Shown piece by piece: positions 23,549-34,464 of a stretch of DNA of 64,000 nt (its first letter is position 1; each line of letters opens with the position of its first letter). The notes under the pieces were generated by a model. The model was given only the letters and a program-made list of their open reading frames with translations. It was not told the origin of the DNA and did no database searches. Source of the stretch: Croceicoccus sp. Lineage in GTDB: Bacteria > Pseudomonadota > Alphaproteobacteria > Sphingomonadales > Sphingomonadaceae. Where the stretch lies: assembly GCA_002694745.1 (NCBI GenBank), contig NZMY01000027.1, positions 1 through 64,000 on the forward strand, written 5' to 3'. Both the position numbers and the translations under genes were made by a program.

Positions 23549-24526
23549 CTACCCCCCGATTTCCTCGCCCGATTCCTGGGCAGCCGCGGCCTGCGCGGCC
23601 TCGCGCTCAAGCCGCTTGCGCTGTGCTTCCATCTCGGCTTCCTCTGCCGCGCGGCCGGGCACGCGCATATAGATGCGGTCGTCGGCGCGCATGTCGAACA
23701 CCGACACCTTGCCGCCCAGCAGGCGGTTCATTCCGTCGAGCCGTGCGAAAGAGACCAGCGCATCGGACGATTCCTCGTCCCCCTCGGGCAAGGCCACGAC
23801 CTGCCCGGTCTTGAACGTCAGGTTCCAGCGGCGATTGCCGACCCACTCGGCGGCGCGCACCTGCGGCTTGAGCGCGGGGGCGGCATCGAGCAGTTCGGAC
23901 AGTTCGACCGCCCGGTCCGCCGCGCCGTCGCCTGACAGCACCAGCATCTTTTCCGCCTCCCCGCGCTTGACGGGTTCGAGGCGGTGGCCCGACGGGTCGA
24001 TCAGCACATATTCCTCGCCCTCGCGCAGGACGGCGTGGGGGCGGCGTTCGACGATGTCGATCACCAGCGTATCGGGAAGCTGCCGAGAGACGCGCGCATC
24101 GGACACCCACGGCAATTGCAGCAGATCCTCGCGCAGCACGTCGACATCCATCAGCGGCATGGGCACCTGCTGAACGGCCACGGCGCGTTCGTAGATCGCC
24201 TGCCGGTCCATCCGGTCGACGCCGCGCACCTCGACCTTGCGCACGGTGAAGCCCGCATCGTCCGCCATGCCGCCGACGCGGTCGCGCACGGCCTCGGGCA
24301 GGCCGGCATAGATCGCCAGCGCCACCAGCGAGACCGCAGCGAGCGCGATGAAGACGCCGATGAAGAATTTCTGCAGCCCGGTCTCGGAAATCGGCACCTT
24401 GTTCCATGCCGCGCCGACCGCGCCGCCGGTCTTCTGCTTCGCACCGCGAACCGCGCGCGCCTTGCCCTTGGCAGCGGTGGCGCGGCGCACGCCCTTGCCG
24501 CCGCGCTTGATGGTGGTCGCGCTCAT
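23549..24526 (-). CDS. ftsQ: Cell division protein FtsQ
   Basis: A bitopic divisome protein of 325 residues that bridges early and late division proteins. It has a very basic cytoplasmic tail (1-50), one transmembrane helix (about 53-75), a POTRA domain (about 90-160) with FTVRKVEVRGVDRM, and a periplasmic beta domain containing the motif ERRPHAVLREG. A charged Ala/Glu tail of about 30 residues ends the protein. The start overlaps the murB stop by 4 bases; no ddl gene intervenes. ftsA starts 5 bases downstream. Confidence 0.95.
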   Translation of the reverse strand: MSATTIKRGGKGVRRATAAKGKARAVRGAKQKTGGAVGAAWNKVPISETGLQKFFIGVFIALAAVSLVALAIYAGLPEAVRDRVGGMADDAGFTVRKVEVRGVDRMDRQAIYERAVAVQQVPMPLMDVDVLREDLLQLPWVSDARVSRQLPDTLVIDIVERRPHAVLREGEEYVLIDPSGHRLEPVKRGEAEKMLVLSGDGAADRAVELSELLDAAPALKPQVRAAEWVGNRRWNLTFKTGQVVALPEGDEESSDALVSFARLDGMNRLLGGKVSVFDMRADDRIYMRVPGRAAEEAEMEAQRKRLEREAAQAAAAQESGEEIGG

Positions 24527-25479
24527 TGTCCGGCCTCTTCAGCGGTCAGGCCGACGCGGCGAATTTCCCATTCGAGTTCGATGCCGCTGTTCTCGCGCAC
24601 GCGGCGGCGTACCTCTTCGCCCAGCGCCTCGATATCGGCGCTGGCGGCGTTGCCGTTGTTGATGAGGAAATTGGTGTGCTTCTCGCTCACCTGCGCGTCG
24701 CCGATGGCAAGGCCGCGGCAGCCTGCGCGGTCGACCAGCTCCCACGCGCTGTGCCCCGGCGGGTTCTTGAAGGTCGAGCCGCCCGTCTTCGTGCGCAGCG
24801 GCTGAGAGGCTTCGCGCGCGGCGGGGATGCGGTCCATCTCGGCCTGGATCGCGGCGGGATCGCCCTTGCTGCCGCGCATGGTGGCGCTGGTGACGATCGC
24901 GCCGCCGGGCAGAGCCGAGTGGCGATAGCTGTATTGCAGATCGTCCAGCGTGAATACGCGCCGTTCGCCGCTGCGCAGCACGACTTCGGCCTCGACCAAT
25001 ATGTCCTTCACCTCACGCCCATAGGCGCCGCCGTTCATGCGCACGAAGCCGCCGACCGAACCGGGGATCGACTTCAGGAACTCAAGCCCCGCGATGCCGT
25101 GATCGCGCGCGCTGGAACTGGCGAGCACGCCCGATGTGCCGCCGCCCAGCTTCAGCGTCAGATCATCCAGCCGTTCGACATCGGCAAAACCCTTGCCCAG
25201 CCGGACGACGACGCCGTTCACGCCGCCGTCGCGAATGATCAGGTTGGACCCCAGCCCCAGCCCCATCACCGGCACCCAATCGGGCAGCGCGGACAGGAAC
25301 ACGGCGAGATCATCGGCATCGGCGGGTTCGAACAGCAGTTCGGCGGGGCCGCCGGTCTTGAACCATGTCAGCTTGGCCAGCGGCGCATGCGCGGTCAGCC
25401 GCCCGCGCGGTTCGGGCACGCTGATCGAGCCGCCGCGCAGCGCGAATTGCAGTTCGCCGGTGTGGGGCTTGCTGGCCAT
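24523..25479 (-). CDS. murB: UDP-N-acetylenolpyruvoylglucosamine reductase MurB
   Basis: An FAD/NADPH-dependent reductase of 318 residues that completes UDP-MurNAc synthesis in the cytoplasm. The FAD-binding part shows LAKLTWFKTGGPAELLF and LGLGSNLIIRDGG. The substrate domain contains IPGSVGGFVRMNGGAYGREV and GSTFKNPPG, and ISEKHTNF appears as VSEKHTNF. This is the type lacking the Tyr loop (type IIa), as usual in alphaproteobacteria. The ATG at 25479 overlaps the murC stop by one base. The stop overlaps ftsQ. Confidence 0.96.
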   Translation of the reverse strand: MASKPHTGELQFALRGGSISVPEPRGRLTAHAPLAKLTWFKTGGPAELLFEPADADDLAVFLSALPDWVPVMGLGLGSNLIIRDGGVNGVVVRLGKGFADVERLDDLTLKLGGGTSGVLASSSARDHGIAGLEFLKSIPGSVGGFVRMNGGAYGREVKDILVEAEVVLRSGERRVFTLDDLQYSYRHSALPGGAIVTSATMRGSKGDPAAIQAEMDRIPAAREASQPLRTKTGGSTFKNPPGHSAWELVDRAGCRGLAIGDAQVSEKHTNFLINNGNAASADIEALGEEVRRRVRENSGIELEWEIRRVGLTAEEAGQ

Positions 25480-29355: not shown

Positions 29356-30749
29356 GGATTGGCCTCCCCGGGATCGCTGCCTTCGGCCAGCATGGCGACA
29401 AGGCTGGCAAAGGCCTCGCCCCGTTTCTCGTAATCGCGGAACTGGTCGAAACTGGCGCAGGCGGGCGACAGCAGCACCACGTCGCCGGGCCGGGCGGCGG
29501 CGGCGGCGGCACGCACGGCCTCGCCCATCATCTCGGACCGCTGTACGGGCACGCGGCCTTCCAGCAGGCGGGTGAACATGGGCCCTGCCTCGCCGATGGT
29601 ATAGGCGGCGGCGACATTGCCCAGCATCGCCTCGCACTCGGCCAGCGTGTCGCCCTTGGGCAGCCCGCCGACGATCCAGTGCACGCGCGGGCGGCCTTCA
29701 CGCGGCGGGAACGCGGCAAGCGCGGGCGCGGTGGAGGCGGGATTGGTCGCCTTGGAATCGTTGACGAAGGCGACACCGCCGACTTCGCCCACCTGTTCCA
29801 TGCGGTGCGGCAGGCCGCGAAAGCTCTTCAGCCCCTCGACGATCGCCGCTTCCTCGACCCCGAAGCGGCGCGCGATGGCCACGGCGGCGGCGGCATTGCC
29901 GCGATTATGCGGACCCTGCAGCGAGGGCCAGTCGGCGGGCGTGCCGGGCAGGGTCACATCCTCGATCACCACGGGCGAGCGATGCGACAGCGCCCGCGCG
30001 ACCGACGGGAGCGACAGGCTGGCGCGGTCGACCAGCGCCATGGCGCGCGCTTCCTGCATGCCGAACAAGCGTACCTTGCTCTCGGTATAGGCCTCGAAAC
30101 TGCCGTCATAGCGGTCGAGATGATCGGGCGAGACATTGAGGATGGCCGCAGCCTCGCACGACAGGCTGGCGGTGATGTCGATCTGATAGCTCGACAGTTC
30201 GAACACATAGATCGCGGGGCCCTTGTCATTGGGCTGCAGCGCGTCGGTCGACAGAACGGGAATGCCGATATTGCCGCCCAGCCGGGTCGAGAAACCGGCG
30301 GTCTTCAGCAGATGATGCAGCAGCGCGCAGGTCGTCGACTTGCCATTGGTGCCGGTGATGCCCGCCACCTTGTGCGGCGGCAAGGCGCTGCGGGCCTGCG
30401 CGAAGAGTTCGATATCGCCGATGATGGCGACGCCGGTCGCGCGCGCCACCTCTGTAATCGGATGACGGTTGAGCGGGACGCCTGGCGACACCACGATCCC
30501 GTCGAACCCGGCGACCGAGAAGCGGTCGATCTCGGCCACGCGCAGCAGGCCGCGGCAGTCCCCGGCGATCTGTTCGGCCAGGCGGCGGGCCTCAGGGTCG
30601 CGGTCCCAGGCGAGCACGCGCGCACCCGCGTCGCAAAGCGCGCGGATCGAGGCCATGCCGGTGCGCGCCAGCCCCAGAACGGCGTAGTTGCGCCCCGCGA
30701 ATATGCCGGGCGGCAATATGCCCGAAGGGGGAGAGGCGCCGCCGGTCAT
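29352..30749 (-). CDS. murD: UDP-N-acetylmuramoyl-L-alanine--D-glutamate ligase MurD
   Basis: A Mur ligase of 465 residues that adds D-Glu to UDP-MurNAc-L-Ala. Shown by the N-terminal Rossmann motif [10 protein letters not shown], the P-loop GTNGKSTT (133-140), the ELSSYQID segment, [11 protein letters not shown] and the C-terminal [13 protein letters not shown] motif typical of MurD. The start ATG at 30749 overlaps the mraY stop by 4 bases, and the stop overlaps ftsW by 4 bases. Confidence 0.97.
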
Positions 30750-31807
30750 CGCACCTTCAATGTCGCAAGGCCGATCACGGCAAGCACGATCGCCACGATC
30801 CAGAAGCGCACGACCACGGTGGATTCGGCCCAGCCCTTCTGCTCGAAATGGTGATGGATCGGGGCCATGCGGAACACGCGCTTGCCGGTCCGCTTGTACC
30901 AGAACACCTGCACGATGACCGACACCGCCTCCAGCACGAAGAGGCCGCCGACGATGGCCAGCACCACTTCGTGATGCGCGGCGACCGCGATGGTGCCGAG
31001 TGCGCCGCCCAGTGCCAGCGAACCGGTGTCGCCCATGAACACGGCGGCGGGCGGCGCGTTGAACCACAGGAACGCAAGCCCCGCCCCGATGATGGCGGCG
31101 CATAATATGGCAAGCTCGCCCGCTCCCTCGACATAAGGAATGCCGAGATATTCCGAATAATCGGCGCGGCCGACCAGATAGGCGATGATCGCGAACGTGC
31201 CGCTGGCGATGATGACCGGCATGATGGCCAGCCCGTCGAGCCCGTCGGTCAGGTTCACCGCATTGCCCGCGCCCACGATGACGAAGGCGGCGAAGATGTA
31301 ATAGAACGGCCCCAGCGGCACGCCAAAGCCGACGAAGGGCAGGTAAAGCGTCGTTTCGCGCACCACCAGCCAGGCGGCGAGGCCCGCGATCAGGAATTCG
31401 CCCGCCAGCCGGACCTTGCCCGACACGCCCTTGTGGCTGGCCTTGCGGACCTTGTCATAATCGTCGAGGAAACCGATCAGACCGAAACCCAGCGTGACCG
31501 CGATGCAGGCCCACACCGCCCAGTTGGTCAGGTCCATCCACAGGAACATCGAAACCGACACCGCCGCCATGATCAGCAGCCCGCCCATGGTGGGCGTGCC
31601 GCGCTTGGCCAGATGCGTCTGCGGGCCGTCCAGCCGGATCGGCTGACCCTTGCCCTGCCGCACGCGCAGCAGATCGATGAAACGCGGGCCGATCATCAGC
31701 CCGATCGCCAGCGCCGTCAGCAGGCAAGCGCCCGCGCGAAAGCTCTGGTATCGGACGAGATTGGCCAGCCCTTCGAATTCGAGCCACTGGGCGATCAGGT
31801 ACAGCAT
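30746..31807 (-). CDS. mraY: Phospho-N-acetylmuramoyl-pentapeptide-transferase MraY
   Basis: A ten-helix inner-membrane enzyme of 353 residues that transfers phospho-MurNAc-pentapeptide to undecaprenyl phosphate, forming lipid I. Conserved motifs: [17 protein letters not shown] (Asp pair), [21 protein letters not shown] and the histidine triad MAPIHHHFE near the C-terminus. A strong GAGGAG ribosome binding site lies 5 bases before the ATG at 31807. This is the only gene in the run with a sizeable upstream gap (141 bases), so it relies on its own initiation signal. Confidence 0.97.
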
Positions 31808-31948
31808 TCGCGCTCCTCAGGCACCGCGATATTGTTGCGGCTACGCAGCCATAGGCAATGGGCCATGCCAACGGCCATGTGAAGCGCCCCCCTCAGCATT
31901 TCCCCACCTGAACGAGAGCCGAACCGGCGACCCGCGCAGGCCGGACGA

Positions 31949-32986
31949 TCAGACCGCCACGGCGAGCGGCGCCTCTTCCTCTTCCACGTGGCCGCAAAGC
32001 GCCAGCGCAGCCGCGCCGAGCGACGCGCCGCACGCGCGCATCGCGCCCATGATCGCCAGCGAGTCGAGGACGTCGGCATCCTCGAACAGGCCTTCGGACA
32101 GCGACCAGCACATCGCACGGCCCATCATGTCGGCGGTGACGAGGGTGGTTCCATCCTCCATCGTCACCGTGTCGATCAGGCGAATATCGGCGCTGGGCTT
32201 CCGGCCATAGCCATAGACCTGCGCGCCCGCGTCCAGGGCGGCCGCGCGCCATGCGGCGAAGTCGCAGCTGTCGGCAGGCAGCACGGCGGCACCGCCCTGC
32301 TGCAGCGTGGCGGAAATCGCTTCGCCGACGGCGTGATCGAGATGGCTGCCCGACACGAACAGATGGGGGCGCAGCGCGCGCGCATCGTCGGCATTGTCGA
32401 GCGTGAACAGGGCATGGTTGCGGTCCGCCGCCAGCGTGCACAGCGACGCCGCCATGCCGAGATCCGCGTCGGCGATCCACGCCATGCCGCGGCTTGCGCG
32501 GTCGAGCGCGTCATGCAGCACGACATCGATCATCGAACCCGCGCCGAACCCGGCCAGCGCGGTCATCGTGGCGCGCGACCGATTGCGCGAGGCACGCGCG
32601 ATGCGTGCGAGCGCCATGTGCAGATCGTCGACCAGCACATGCGGTCCGCGCAGCTTGTGAACCGACAGGCAGCCCGCCGCGCCGTTCTGCAGCGCGGCCA
32701 TGGCATCGACCTCGCCCTGCGCGACATAGAGCGAGCCGCGCTGCACCTCGCCGGGCGCGAATGCGACGTGATTGGCCGCGAAATCGCCATGCACCGTGCC
32801 GTCCGCCGCCATCGCCAGCGTATGGGCGCGCCACAAGGGGCGCTCGCCGCCCGCATCGCTTTCCTCGATAATGGCCATGCGGGTCGCGTCCGGAACGGGC
32901 CGGATCGTTTTCAGAGCAGGGCTCTTCTGGACCGGACTTTTCAGGGCGGCGGTCTTGAGGACGGACTTCATCTGAGTTCCACTCAT
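31949..32986 (-). CDS. Degenerate MurF-like protein (P-loop and ligase domain lost)
   Basis: An intact 345-residue frame at the murF position of the dcw cluster, between murE and mraY. Residues about 50-135 match the MurF N-terminal domain (GTVHGDFAANHVAFAPGEVQ, GPHVLVDDLHMALARIARAS). The following segment aligns with the ATPase P-loop, but the expected GxxGKT is replaced by GFGAGS (146-151), losing the lysine. Residues 255-335 echo the end of the central domain (GYGRKPSADIRL, TLVTADMMGR, ALCG). The C-terminal ligase domain (about 110 residues) is missing. It is coupled to murE by ATGA. It cannot be an active ATP-dependent ligase by itself. It is inferred to be a pseudoenzyme or regulator; a true MurF must lie elsewhere. 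Confidence 0.8.
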   Translation of the reverse strand: MSGTQMKSVLKTAALKSPVQKSPALKTIRPVPDATRMAIIEESDAGGERPLWRAHTLAMAADGTVHGDFAANHVAFAPGEVQRGSLYVAQGEVDAMAALQNGAAGCLSVHKLRGPHVLVDDLHMALARIARASRNRSRATMTALAGFGAGSMIDVVLHDALDRASRGMAWIADADLGMAASLCTLAADRNHALFTLDNADDARALRPHLFVSGSHLDHAVGEAISATLQQGGAAVLPADSCDFAAWRAAALDAGAQVYGYGRKPSADIRLIDTVTMEDGTTLVTADMMGRAMCWSLSEGLFEDADVLDSLAIMGAMRACGASLGAAALALCGHVEEEEAPLAVAV

Positions 32987-34464
32987 GCTGCACACTCTCT
33001 TGCTACGGTGACGTCGTCGAAGGGGTGGACGCGGGTGGCTTCGCCGCGTCCATAAATCTGGCCCTGTTCGTGGCCCTTGCCGGCGATCAGGACGATATCG
33101 CCCTTGCCGGCCTGCTGCATCGCGGCGGCGATGGCTTCGCGCCGGCCTGCGATTTCGCTGATGTTGCTGGCGCCTTCCGCCCCGACCATGACGGCGGTGC
33201 GGATATGCGCAGGATCCTCGCCGCGCGGGTTGTCGTCGGTGACGATGGCGATATCGGCCTCGCGCGCGGCGATCGCGCCCATCGGTCCGCGCTTGCCGGT
33301 GTCGCGGTCGCCGCCCGCGCCGAACACGACGATCAGGCGGCCGTTCGCGCCGACGTGGGGGCGAAGCGCGGCGACGGCGGCCTGCAACGCTTCGGGCGTA
33401 TGGGCGTAATCGACATAGGCGGGCGCGCCCGCGCGGTTGATCGCGGCGCGTTCAAGCCGTCCGCGCACCGGCTGCAGCCGCGACATCGCGTCGAACACCT
33501 GCGCCGCGGCAGGCCCGGACGCATCGGCGGTGGCGAGGACGAGGCCCGCGGCGGTCAATGCATTGGCCGCCTGATAGGCACCGATCAGCGGCAGCCTGAC
33601 CTTGTAGTCCGCGCCGCCATAGGTAAGCGCCAGTTCCTGGCCCAGTTCGGTCGGATGGCGTCCATTCAGCCGGATACCCGCTTCGTCGGCACGATTGCCG
33701 ACCGTCAGAACGGAAAGGCCGCGCGCCTGCGCCCGCTCGATCGCCGCATCGCTGCGCGGATCGTCGGACCAGATCACCGCGTGGCCGCCGTCCGAGACGA
33801 CCTCGTCGAACAGCCGCATCTTGGCGGCGAAATAATCTTCCATGTCGGCGTGGTAGTCGAGGTGGTCGCGCGACAGATTGGTGAAGGCCCCCGCCGCGAC
33901 CCTCAGCCCCTCGTTCCGGAATTGCGAGAGGCCGTGGCTCGACGCTTCATAGGCGACATGGGTCACGCCTTCGCGCGCAAGCCCGGTCATGTTCGACAGG
34001 AAGGTCACGATGTCGGGCGTGGTGAGGCCGGTCGACACGCTCTCGTCCGGGGTGGTGACGCCCAGCGTGCCGATGCTGGCGGCCGAAAACCCGCACATGC
34101 GCCAGATCTGGCGCGTCATCTCCACGGTCGAGGTCTTGCCATTGGTGCCGGTGACCGCGACGATGGTGGCGGGCACGGGCACGAAGAACTGCGCCGCCAT
34201 GCGCGCAAAGGCGCGGCGGGGCATCGGGTCGGCTACATGGAGCGCGCCCTCGACCTTCGCATCGGGCCGGGCGACGACGGCGACCGCACCGCTTTCGACC
34301 GCGGCGGGAATGAAATCCTCGCCATTGACGCTGGCGCCCTGGAACGCGCCGAACACGGTACCGGGGGCGACCTTGCGGTGGTCGATGGCGAAACCGGTGA
34401 CGGGCGCGTCCGCCGCGCCGCCCGCATCCAGCCCCGCGCGTTCGAGAATGGCGGAGAGGCGCAT
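32983..34464 (-). CDS. murE: UDP-MurNAc-L-Ala-D-Glu--meso-diaminopimelate ligase MurE
   Basis: A Mur ligase of 493 residues that adds meso-diaminopimelate to the stem peptide. The N-terminal domain (1-100) has ITxDHR-like AIDHRKV. The P-loop GTNGKTST spans 106-113. The central part carries EASSHGLSQ and NLSRDHLDYH. The C-terminal domain has the DNPR motif (TDDNPRGEDP), which specifies diaminopimelate rather than lysine. The start overlaps the ftsI stop by one base; the stop overlaps the MurF-like gene by 4 bases. Confidence 0.97.
   Translation of the reverse strand: MRLSAILERAGLDAGGAADAPVTGFAIDHRKVAPGTVFGAFQGASVNGEDFIPAAVESGAVAVVARPDAKVEGALHVADPMPRRAFARMAAQFFVPVPATIVAVTGTNGKTSTVEMTRQIWRMCGFSAASIGTLGVTTPDESVSTGLTTPDIVTFLSNMTGLAREGVTHVAYEASSHGLSQFRNEGLRVAAGAFTNLSRDHLDYHADMEDYFAAKMRLFDEVVSDGGHAVIWSDDPRSDAAIERAQARGLSVLTVGNRADEAGIRLNGRHPTELGQELALTYGGADYKVRLPLIGAYQAANALTAAGLVLATADASGPAAAQVFDAMSRLQPVRGRLERAAINRAGAPAYVDYAHTPEALQAAVAALRPHVGANGRLIVVFGAGGDRDTGKRGPMGAIAAREADIAIVTDDNPRGEDPAHIRTAVMVGAEGASNISEIAGRREAIAAAMQQAGKGDIVLIAGKGHEQGQIYGRGEATRVHPFDDVTVARECAA

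Follow-up and report, generated by a model that had tools for sequence, protein, structure and literature searches.

The window analysed here is a 64,000-nt stretch of a Croceicoccus sp. contig, and the murF slot of its dcw cluster, between murE and mraY, is occupied by an open reading frame that we call pseudo-murF (Table 1). The frame runs on the reverse strand from an ATG at 32986 to a stop at 31949 with no internal stop, and the letters ATGA are common to the murE stop and the pseudo-murF start, as they are in 14 of 14 Croceicoccus genomes. An initial annotation of this DNA had described such an uninterrupted frame of 345 codons coupled to murE, and it was found as described. A Pfam scan of pseudo-MurF returned no match, and its scores against MurF models lie below the cut-offs (NCBIfam PRK14093: residues 51-331, E 2.8e-13, 49.4 bits, cut-off 544; TIGR01143: 21.8 bits, cut-off 288.6). 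PDB sequences compared with a profile of the family gave only weak matches, a response regulator (E 0.14) and MurF entries (E 0.15-0.36). The spacer before mraY measures 141-191 nt in all 14 Croceicoccus genomes, compared with -4 to 21 nt in 10 canonical relatives, and possibly holds a new mraY promoter. Neither a sigma-70 promoter nor a terminator was detected in it, and RNA structure prediction gave no signal (z 0.56). A hidden C-terminal domain downstream of pseudo-murF was considered and rejected; with only 141 nt available, the C-terminal ligase domain cannot sit before mraY. Further along the cluster ddlB is gone, and murB directly adjoins ftsQ, a gene named by its position and by sequence reading.

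Table 1 Features of the pseudo-murF locus and its neighbours in the window
Feature	Position	Strand	Remarks
pseudo-MurF	31949..32986	-	345 aa; N-terminal and central MurF domains, catalytic residues and C-terminal domain lost
P-loop position, residues 146-151	32534..32551	-	GFGAGS (canonical GSxGKT)
Residues 237-271, candidate new interface	32174..32278	-	conservation 0.90-0.94 in pseudo-MurF, 0.65-0.70 in canonical MurF
Residues 126-140, second newly constrained stretch	32567..32611	-	conservation 0.90 in pseudo-MurF, 0.69 in canonical MurF
murE	32983..34464	-	493 aa; intact by Pfam domains
mraY	30746..31807	-	353 aa
Spacer, pseudo-murF to mraY	31808..31948	-	141 nt; conserved block including TGGGGAAA at 31899-31906
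ftsQ beside murB, no ddlB between	23549..25479	-	ftsQ 23549-24526; murB start 25479

The catalytic residues of MurF are largely lost from this protein and from its orthologues. The 14 Croceicoccus ORFs were aligned with 43 canonical MurF rows, of which 33 are loci from relatives (45 canonical MurF loci less identical C-termini) and 10 are from family f5, with G056 entering twice. In all 14 pseudo-MurFs another residue or a gap stands at Lys137 of the P-loop, Glu186, His216, Lys230, Trp312, and Asn315 (L020 numbering); Thr138 and Asn164 are kept in two each, and Asn165 is kept in none. Arg346, Asp363, Tyr366, Asn367, Asn369, Glu397, and His406 are missing along with the C-terminal ligase domain, which is lacking in 14/14. 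In the N-domain, Arg60 is replaced in all 14 and His79 in 12; both are presumably substrate-binding residues of MurF. The absence of the P-loop lysine and of the C-terminal domain, both reported in the initial annotation for the window protein, therefore hold throughout the 14 genomes. The loss goes further than was described there: the Asn loop is affected, as are the positions of Glu, His, and the carbamylated Lys and the Arg of the N-domain, all of them residues with chemical roles in MurF.

The initial annotation had also matched the frame to the N-terminal and central domains of MurF, and structure prediction bears this out. The AlphaFold model of the C. sediminis orthologue (pLDDT 81.0, pTM 0.74) aligns with P. 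aeruginosa MurF (4cvm) at Z 24.6 and rmsd 3.8 over 285 residues (chain 2-323). The model of the window protein has a pLDDT of 71.8, and its two-domain superposition on MurF is poor, with an rmsd of about 10 over about 273 residues. In both models the similarity to MurF structures is limited to the N-terminal and central domains, which are by prediction still folded. Pseudo-MurF thus resembles canonical MurF (TIGR01143; P. aeruginosa 4cvk/4cvm, E. coli 1gg4) in its locus, its predicted domain 1-2 fold, and its descent, and differs from it in the lost catalytic residues, the missing C-terminal domain, and the pattern of conservation. Its MurF descent is indicated by a phylogenetic tree (see below), by the fold of the C. 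sediminis model, and by the synteny murE-x-mraY. As a MurF ligase it falls short in score, catalytic residues, and C-terminal domain. As a pseudoenzyme it shows what would be expected, namely homology to an enzyme whose catalytic residues have been lost and selection at the protein level. The sequences argue strongly that pseudo-MurF is a MurF-derived pseudoenzyme, catalytically dead and maintained.

The ORF is fixed in the genus. It is open, free of internal stops, and located in the murF slot in 14/14 Croceicoccus genomes, the window's included, with murE and mraY beside it in the 14 loci, and the orthologues are 47-90% identical to the window protein. A scan of GTDB 220 contigs recovered nine loci with the ORF between murE and mraY, all from Croceicoccus (mobilis, gelatinilyticus, pelagius, bisphenolivorans, ponticola, sediminis, hydrothermalis, an uncultured isolate, and a MAG). 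At locus L086 the ORF was missed by the small gene caller, yet it was extracted at the right place. Since 14 genomes and nine loci from that separate collection share this architecture, the sequencing error that the initial annotation had allowed for is excluded in practice, and its description of a degenerate MurF kept in register can be extended to the genus.

A search for a second, complete murF had also been proposed in the initial annotation. The window's assembly (G000) contains a single MurF over the cut-off (373 bits), on contig C14, which has its own murE and mraY and a further Mur ligase (L156-L157). This gene could be the organism's own, perhaps acquired, copy, and the GC content of C14 with unread bases excluded (0.647 and 0.663) is similar to that of the rest of the assembly. 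However, the C14 mraY shares 59-61% identity with those of the 14 Croceicoccus genomes, whereas the window mraY is 85-96% identical to the other 13, and the C14 murE is 46% identical to the window murE, compared with 76-90% within the genus. No MurF over the cut-off was found in the 13 Croceicoccus relatives, and the window's assembly is listed at 4.77% contamination. The tetranucleotide correlation between the first 20 kb of C14 and the window (0.90) is the lowest among the sampled stretches of this assembly (others 0.92-0.97), which is weak evidence. C14 is probably contamination, apparently bringing in a murE-murF-mraY set from another alphaproteobacterium, for which we assume a Rhodobacterales-like origin. 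The C14 MurF was set aside as the organism's active copy because the accompanying murE and mraY are foreign to the genus. Taken with a dead ORF common to 14 genomes, these data make it very improbable that the locus is explained by sequencing error or by a complete murF of the organism's own.

The dN/dS check called for in the initial annotation was run and gave values well below 1, which makes neutral decay unlikely. For the 12 closest Croceicoccus pairs, dN/dS of pseudo-murF ranges from 0.05 to 0.29. Three clade pairs gave 0.112 (95% bootstrap interval 0.072-0.167), 0.093 (0.055-0.145), and 0.244 (0.166-0.339), compared with 0.124, 0.081, and 0.084 for murE and 0.077, 0.013, and 0.038 for mraY. 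When all 91 Croceicoccus pairs are taken, the median rises to 0.37 (maximum 0.63), a looser constraint than in murE (0.185) and mraY (0.128). As a frame control, the two shifted same-strand frames of pseudo-murF gave dN/dS of 1.9-10. One of the three reverse frames gave 0.11-0.36 and the others 1.5-6.1; the low reverse-frame value is expected if third positions coincide.

Conservation within the protein has moved from the active-site loops to residues 237-271, a stretch that is variable in canonical MurF. The P-loop now scores 0.67 compared with 0.90 in canonical MurF, and the Asn loop 0.68 compared with 0.89. Of the 102 positions that do not vary in 20 MurFs of Croceicoccus' own family, 33 have the family residue in 13 or more of the 14 pseudo-MurFs. 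A total of 100 positions are invariant across the 14 pseudo-MurFs, and 42 of these carry a residue unlike the family majority. In a tree of 68 MurF sequences (a quick search that left out G348 and G386), the 14 pseudo-MurFs fall into a single clade (SH-aLRT 100) whose stem is long (2.06) and which groups with the MurFs of Croceicoccus' family (SH-aLRT 99). The long stem suggests that rapid change gave way to slower change, the pattern expected of a change of role; the search was quick, and long-branch effects may contribute.

Two further explanations bear on these constraints. The ORF might matter only as a translated spacer that couples translation of murE to that of mraY, as the ATGA start in 14/14 genomes could suggest. 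However, with a gap of 141-191 nt mraY is not directly coupled to pseudo-murF, selection acts on the amino acids, and murE and mraY abut in G040 and other genomes, so a role of this kind is highly unlikely. Alternatively, the dead fold could act as a ligand sensor, regulating MurE, MraY, or the pathway in response to a bound precursor or nucleotide. Its retained and constrained predicted fold and its operon place between murE and mraY are consistent with such a function, but the P-loop and many active-site positions are lost or variable, and we consider a sensor improbable.

The Croceicoccus relatives that were scanned offer a single MurF candidate, a second protein that we name TM-MurF2. It is a MurF-like ligase with a hydrophobic N-terminus encoded beside a long D-Ala-D-Ala ligase (Ddl) and an alpha/beta hydrolase. 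In the window's genome it has 535 aa and scores 198.5 bits against the MurF cut-off of 288.6, matching positions 64-402 of 418. TM-MurF2 matches occur in 14/14 Croceicoccus genomes, in five of which the sequence was read; among the 13 relatives, 12 have scores of 195-204 bits and the fragmented G012 has one of 186, with match spans from 25-65 to 356-402 of 418. A PF08245 scan of six relatives found five Mur-ligase central domains in each, those of MurE, MurC, MurD, a FolC-like protein (named by position and score), and TM-MurF2. A simple hydropathy scan marks hydrophobic segments in the first ~150 residues of TM-MurF2, and Pfam recognised the central and C-terminal Mur domains in two of these proteins and did not recognise the N-terminal one. 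TM-MurF2 thus resembles canonical MurF in its central and C-terminal domains and in most catalytic residues, and differs in that a hydrophobic N-terminus replaces the N-terminal MurF domain, which binds UDP-MurNAc-tripeptide, and in scoring below the MurF cut-off.

The alignment of TM-MurF2 covered 13 loci, five from Croceicoccus and eight others (L066, L070, and L071 were left out). The P-loop Lys/Thr, Asn164, Glu186, His216, Lys230, Asn315, Arg346, Tyr366, Asn367, Asn369, Glu397, and His406 are kept in 13/13 loci and Asp363 in 12/13; deviations from canonical MurF at Asn165 (to Thr), Glu194 (to Ser), Trp312, and Lys476 are also common to all 13. Within Croceicoccus, dN/dS of TM-MurF2 is 0.08-0.24 (10 pairs from five genomes). 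The adjoining long Ddl (TIGR01205 211 bits, below the cut-off of 245.65), located with TM-MurF2 on contig C11, is the strongest Ddl match in the window's genome. In a set of 60 relatives, 28 genomes have a Ddl over the cut-off and 29 have a TM-MurF2-type match, with no overlap and three genomes with neither; TM-type status in this set was mostly assigned from the match range. Thirteen of the genomes with TM-MurF2-type matches keep canonical MurF, so the two proteins need not share a job there. From these sequence features, we infer that TM-MurF2 is membrane-anchored and makes the pentapeptide precursor. The expectation in the initial annotation that an active MurF is encoded elsewhere may thus hold in spirit, with TM-MurF2 as the best candidate, while the complete C14 murF looks foreign.

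The complementary architectures of the two proteins suggest that pseudo-MurF could lend TM-MurF2 its missing substrate-binding domain, so that together they would make a working MurF. TM-MurF2 lacks the N-terminal domain, and pseudo-MurF keeps just the N-terminal and central ones. However, the Arg60 and His79 replacements in pseudo-MurF argue against this, and in five genomes in which TM-MurF2 was seen there is no murF at all. A split enzyme therefore has a low probability.

Retirement of MurF is not confined to Croceicoccus. In a survey of the order, MurF was over the cut-off in 284 of 297 genomes, and the 248 genomes of Croceicoccus' family besides the window's all keep it. The 13 genomes lacking it are G040 (f6), G047 (f7), and 11 members of f5. 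The absence in G047 may be an assembly gap, because this genome is fragmented and no mraY was found in it, while G040 has TM-MurF2. Among the 25 genomes of f5, 11 have a canonical MurF, seven have murF deleted with murE abutting mraY, two have a truncated motif-less MurF (G093, G105), two have a full-length motif-less MurF (G072, G095), one has an altered MurF (G069), and two are too fragmented to class (G331, G332). Against TIGR01143 the four dead f5 MurFs score 36-83 bits and the altered one 259. The f5 genomes without canonical MurF have a best MurF-model match of E 1e-63 to 1e-69 (G333 was left out of this search for TM-MurF2). Since this is like the value in the verified, same-genus G039, and since dead MurFs score lower, these genomes probably carry TM-MurF2.

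A survey of 242 genomes of the class, including five of Croceicoccus' family besides the window's, found full-length TM-MurF2 in 11, the window's included. The window's genome was left out of the comparison because of its C14 murF. Among the other 241, no MurF over the cut-off was found in 8 of 10 genomes with TM-MurF2 compared with 9 of 231 without it (Fisher p 4e-9, in a test that ignores phylogeny). Nine genomes have neither; G541 and G546 have no MraY over the cut-off, G348, G386, G476, and G540 carry a divergent MurF in the slot, and the remaining three are 0.9 Mb genomes. Genomes in which TM-MurF2 was seen and murF is deleted are G040, G398, G461, G363, and G353. In the murF slot of G516 and G558 there is a motif-less protein (38 and 43 bits), while G468 retains only a remnant of 152 aa next to mraY. 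In G460, one of the eight genomes counted as lacking a MurF over the cut-off, the slot protein is a MurF of 203 bits that keeps the P-loop Lys and several catalytic positions; it is divergent, not dead, and may be active. In G516, G558, and G555 (L151, L153, and L154), where the dcw genes were named by reading, Ddl, the hydrolase, and TM-MurF2 lie in the dcw cluster between murB and ftsQ, with TM-MurF2 and the hydrolase on the opposite strand to Ddl. The dead f5 MurFs group with f5 MurFs in the tree (100), and those of f86 share a clade with f86, f71, and f107 sequences (99); both sets are separate from Croceicoccus. These separate positions indicate that MurF died at least three times. The initial annotation had called a retained non-catalytic Mur ligase unusual. 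Such a protein is indeed fixed in Croceicoccus, but other families of the class repeatedly show motif-less MurFs and murF deletions, and the genomes concerned have the same anchored ligase or match scores that point to it.

The graded series seen in these genomes, from full-length motif-less proteins (G072, G095) through truncated ones (G093, G105) and the 152-aa remnant to deletion in 12 genomes, is what would be expected if MurF became redundant once TM-MurF2 arrived and pseudo-MurF were a slowly decaying, functionless relic. For Croceicoccus, however, the dN/dS bootstrap intervals well below 1, a frame open in 14/14 genomes at 47-90% identity to the window protein, and 42 newly fixed residues make a relic unlikely. 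The full-length dead MurF of G072/G095 is also constrained (dN/dS 0.049 over 445 codons). For G093/G105 and G516/G558, dN/dS is 0.345 and 0.298, respectively, at high dS.

The evidence that MurF was displaced by a membrane-anchored ligase is circumstantial but strong. In an ancestor of Croceicoccus, a module of long Ddl, alpha/beta hydrolase, and TM-MurF2 would have taken over dipeptide synthesis and the MurF step. ddlB would have disappeared from the dcw cluster, and a phase of rapid change would have stripped MurF of its catalytic site and its C-terminal domain. What was left, the N-terminal and central domains, would still be translated from the start codon that overlaps murE and would have come under a new constraint at the protein level. 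Pseudo-MurF, for which the initial annotation had considered a scaffold or regulatory role, would now most likely serve as a non-catalytic partner, either filling MurF's old docking site in an assembly of MurE, MraY, MurG, and MreB or presenting UDP-MurNAc-tripeptide or MurE to the membrane. We give this reading, displacement by the anchored ligase with the MurF body kept in Croceicoccus as a non-catalytic partner, a probability of roughly 60%. Cases in which a related enzyme takes the place of a pseudoenzyme are known.

That pseudo-MurF is a protein partner is suggested by published contacts of MurF, by the newly constrained residues 237-271, and by the precedent of PAP11/MurE-like. MurF is reported to bind MreB and a MurF-MraY-MurG complex has been proposed (PMC4929429), and a MurE-MurF fusion is reported to bind MurG (PMC6420597); such contacts with MreB, MraY, and MurG offer a non-catalytic reason to keep MurF. 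In the MurE-MurF fusions and the Mur complex (8f5d, a fold match only), as at the Croceicoccus locus, the MurF body adjoins MurE in the pathway, but there MurF is active. PAP11/MurE-like is a subunit of the plastid-encoded RNA polymerase with a Mur ligase fold, its activity being listed as unknown (PMC9456514 and PMC4080259). It (8r6s_Q, 8xzv_J, 9epc_Q) resembles the proposed partner in that a Mur ligase fold is used as a subunit of another machine, and differs in being MurE-like, located in plant plastids, and involved in transcription. Among open-licence PMC papers, we found no report of a dead MurF fixed in a genus, nor of recurrent MurF retirement beside a ligase without the UDP-binding domain. 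Since the retired gene is often lost outside Croceicoccus, TM-MurF2 does not in general require a partner shaped like MurF, and since it is deleted outright elsewhere, any partner role is lineage-specific. A broader and rather doubtful extension is that in several alphaproteobacterial lineages the MurF step has shifted to the membrane, where TM-MurF2 would complete the pentapeptide on membrane-held or lipid-linked tripeptide, supplied by its own Ddl, and that retired MurFs recurrently become non-catalytic organisers of the Mur complex, of which that of Croceicoccus would be the best preserved.

MurF is regarded as an essential step of wall synthesis and as a drug target. In Croceicoccus the orthodox MurF is dead genus-wide, its task has apparently passed to a ligase that differs at the substrate-binding end, and selection still acts on the dead protein. 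The genus may thus offer a natural separation between catalysis by MurF and the architectural function that MurF is suspected to have in the Mur complex. The locus also illustrates that calls of "murF present" or "murF absent", as well as assembly contamination, can mislead metabolic reconstruction.

Two further slot proteins have unusual residues. The altered MurF of G069 (L088) is full-length with an intact P-loop and changes in the Asn loop and Glu, and is itself the best MurF-model match of that genome (7e-77); it may be at the beginning of retirement or act on a different substrate. G386 (L141) has a 1.1 Mb genome without TM-MurF2, and its slot MurF has Asn in place of the P-loop Lys and keeps many other catalytic residues.
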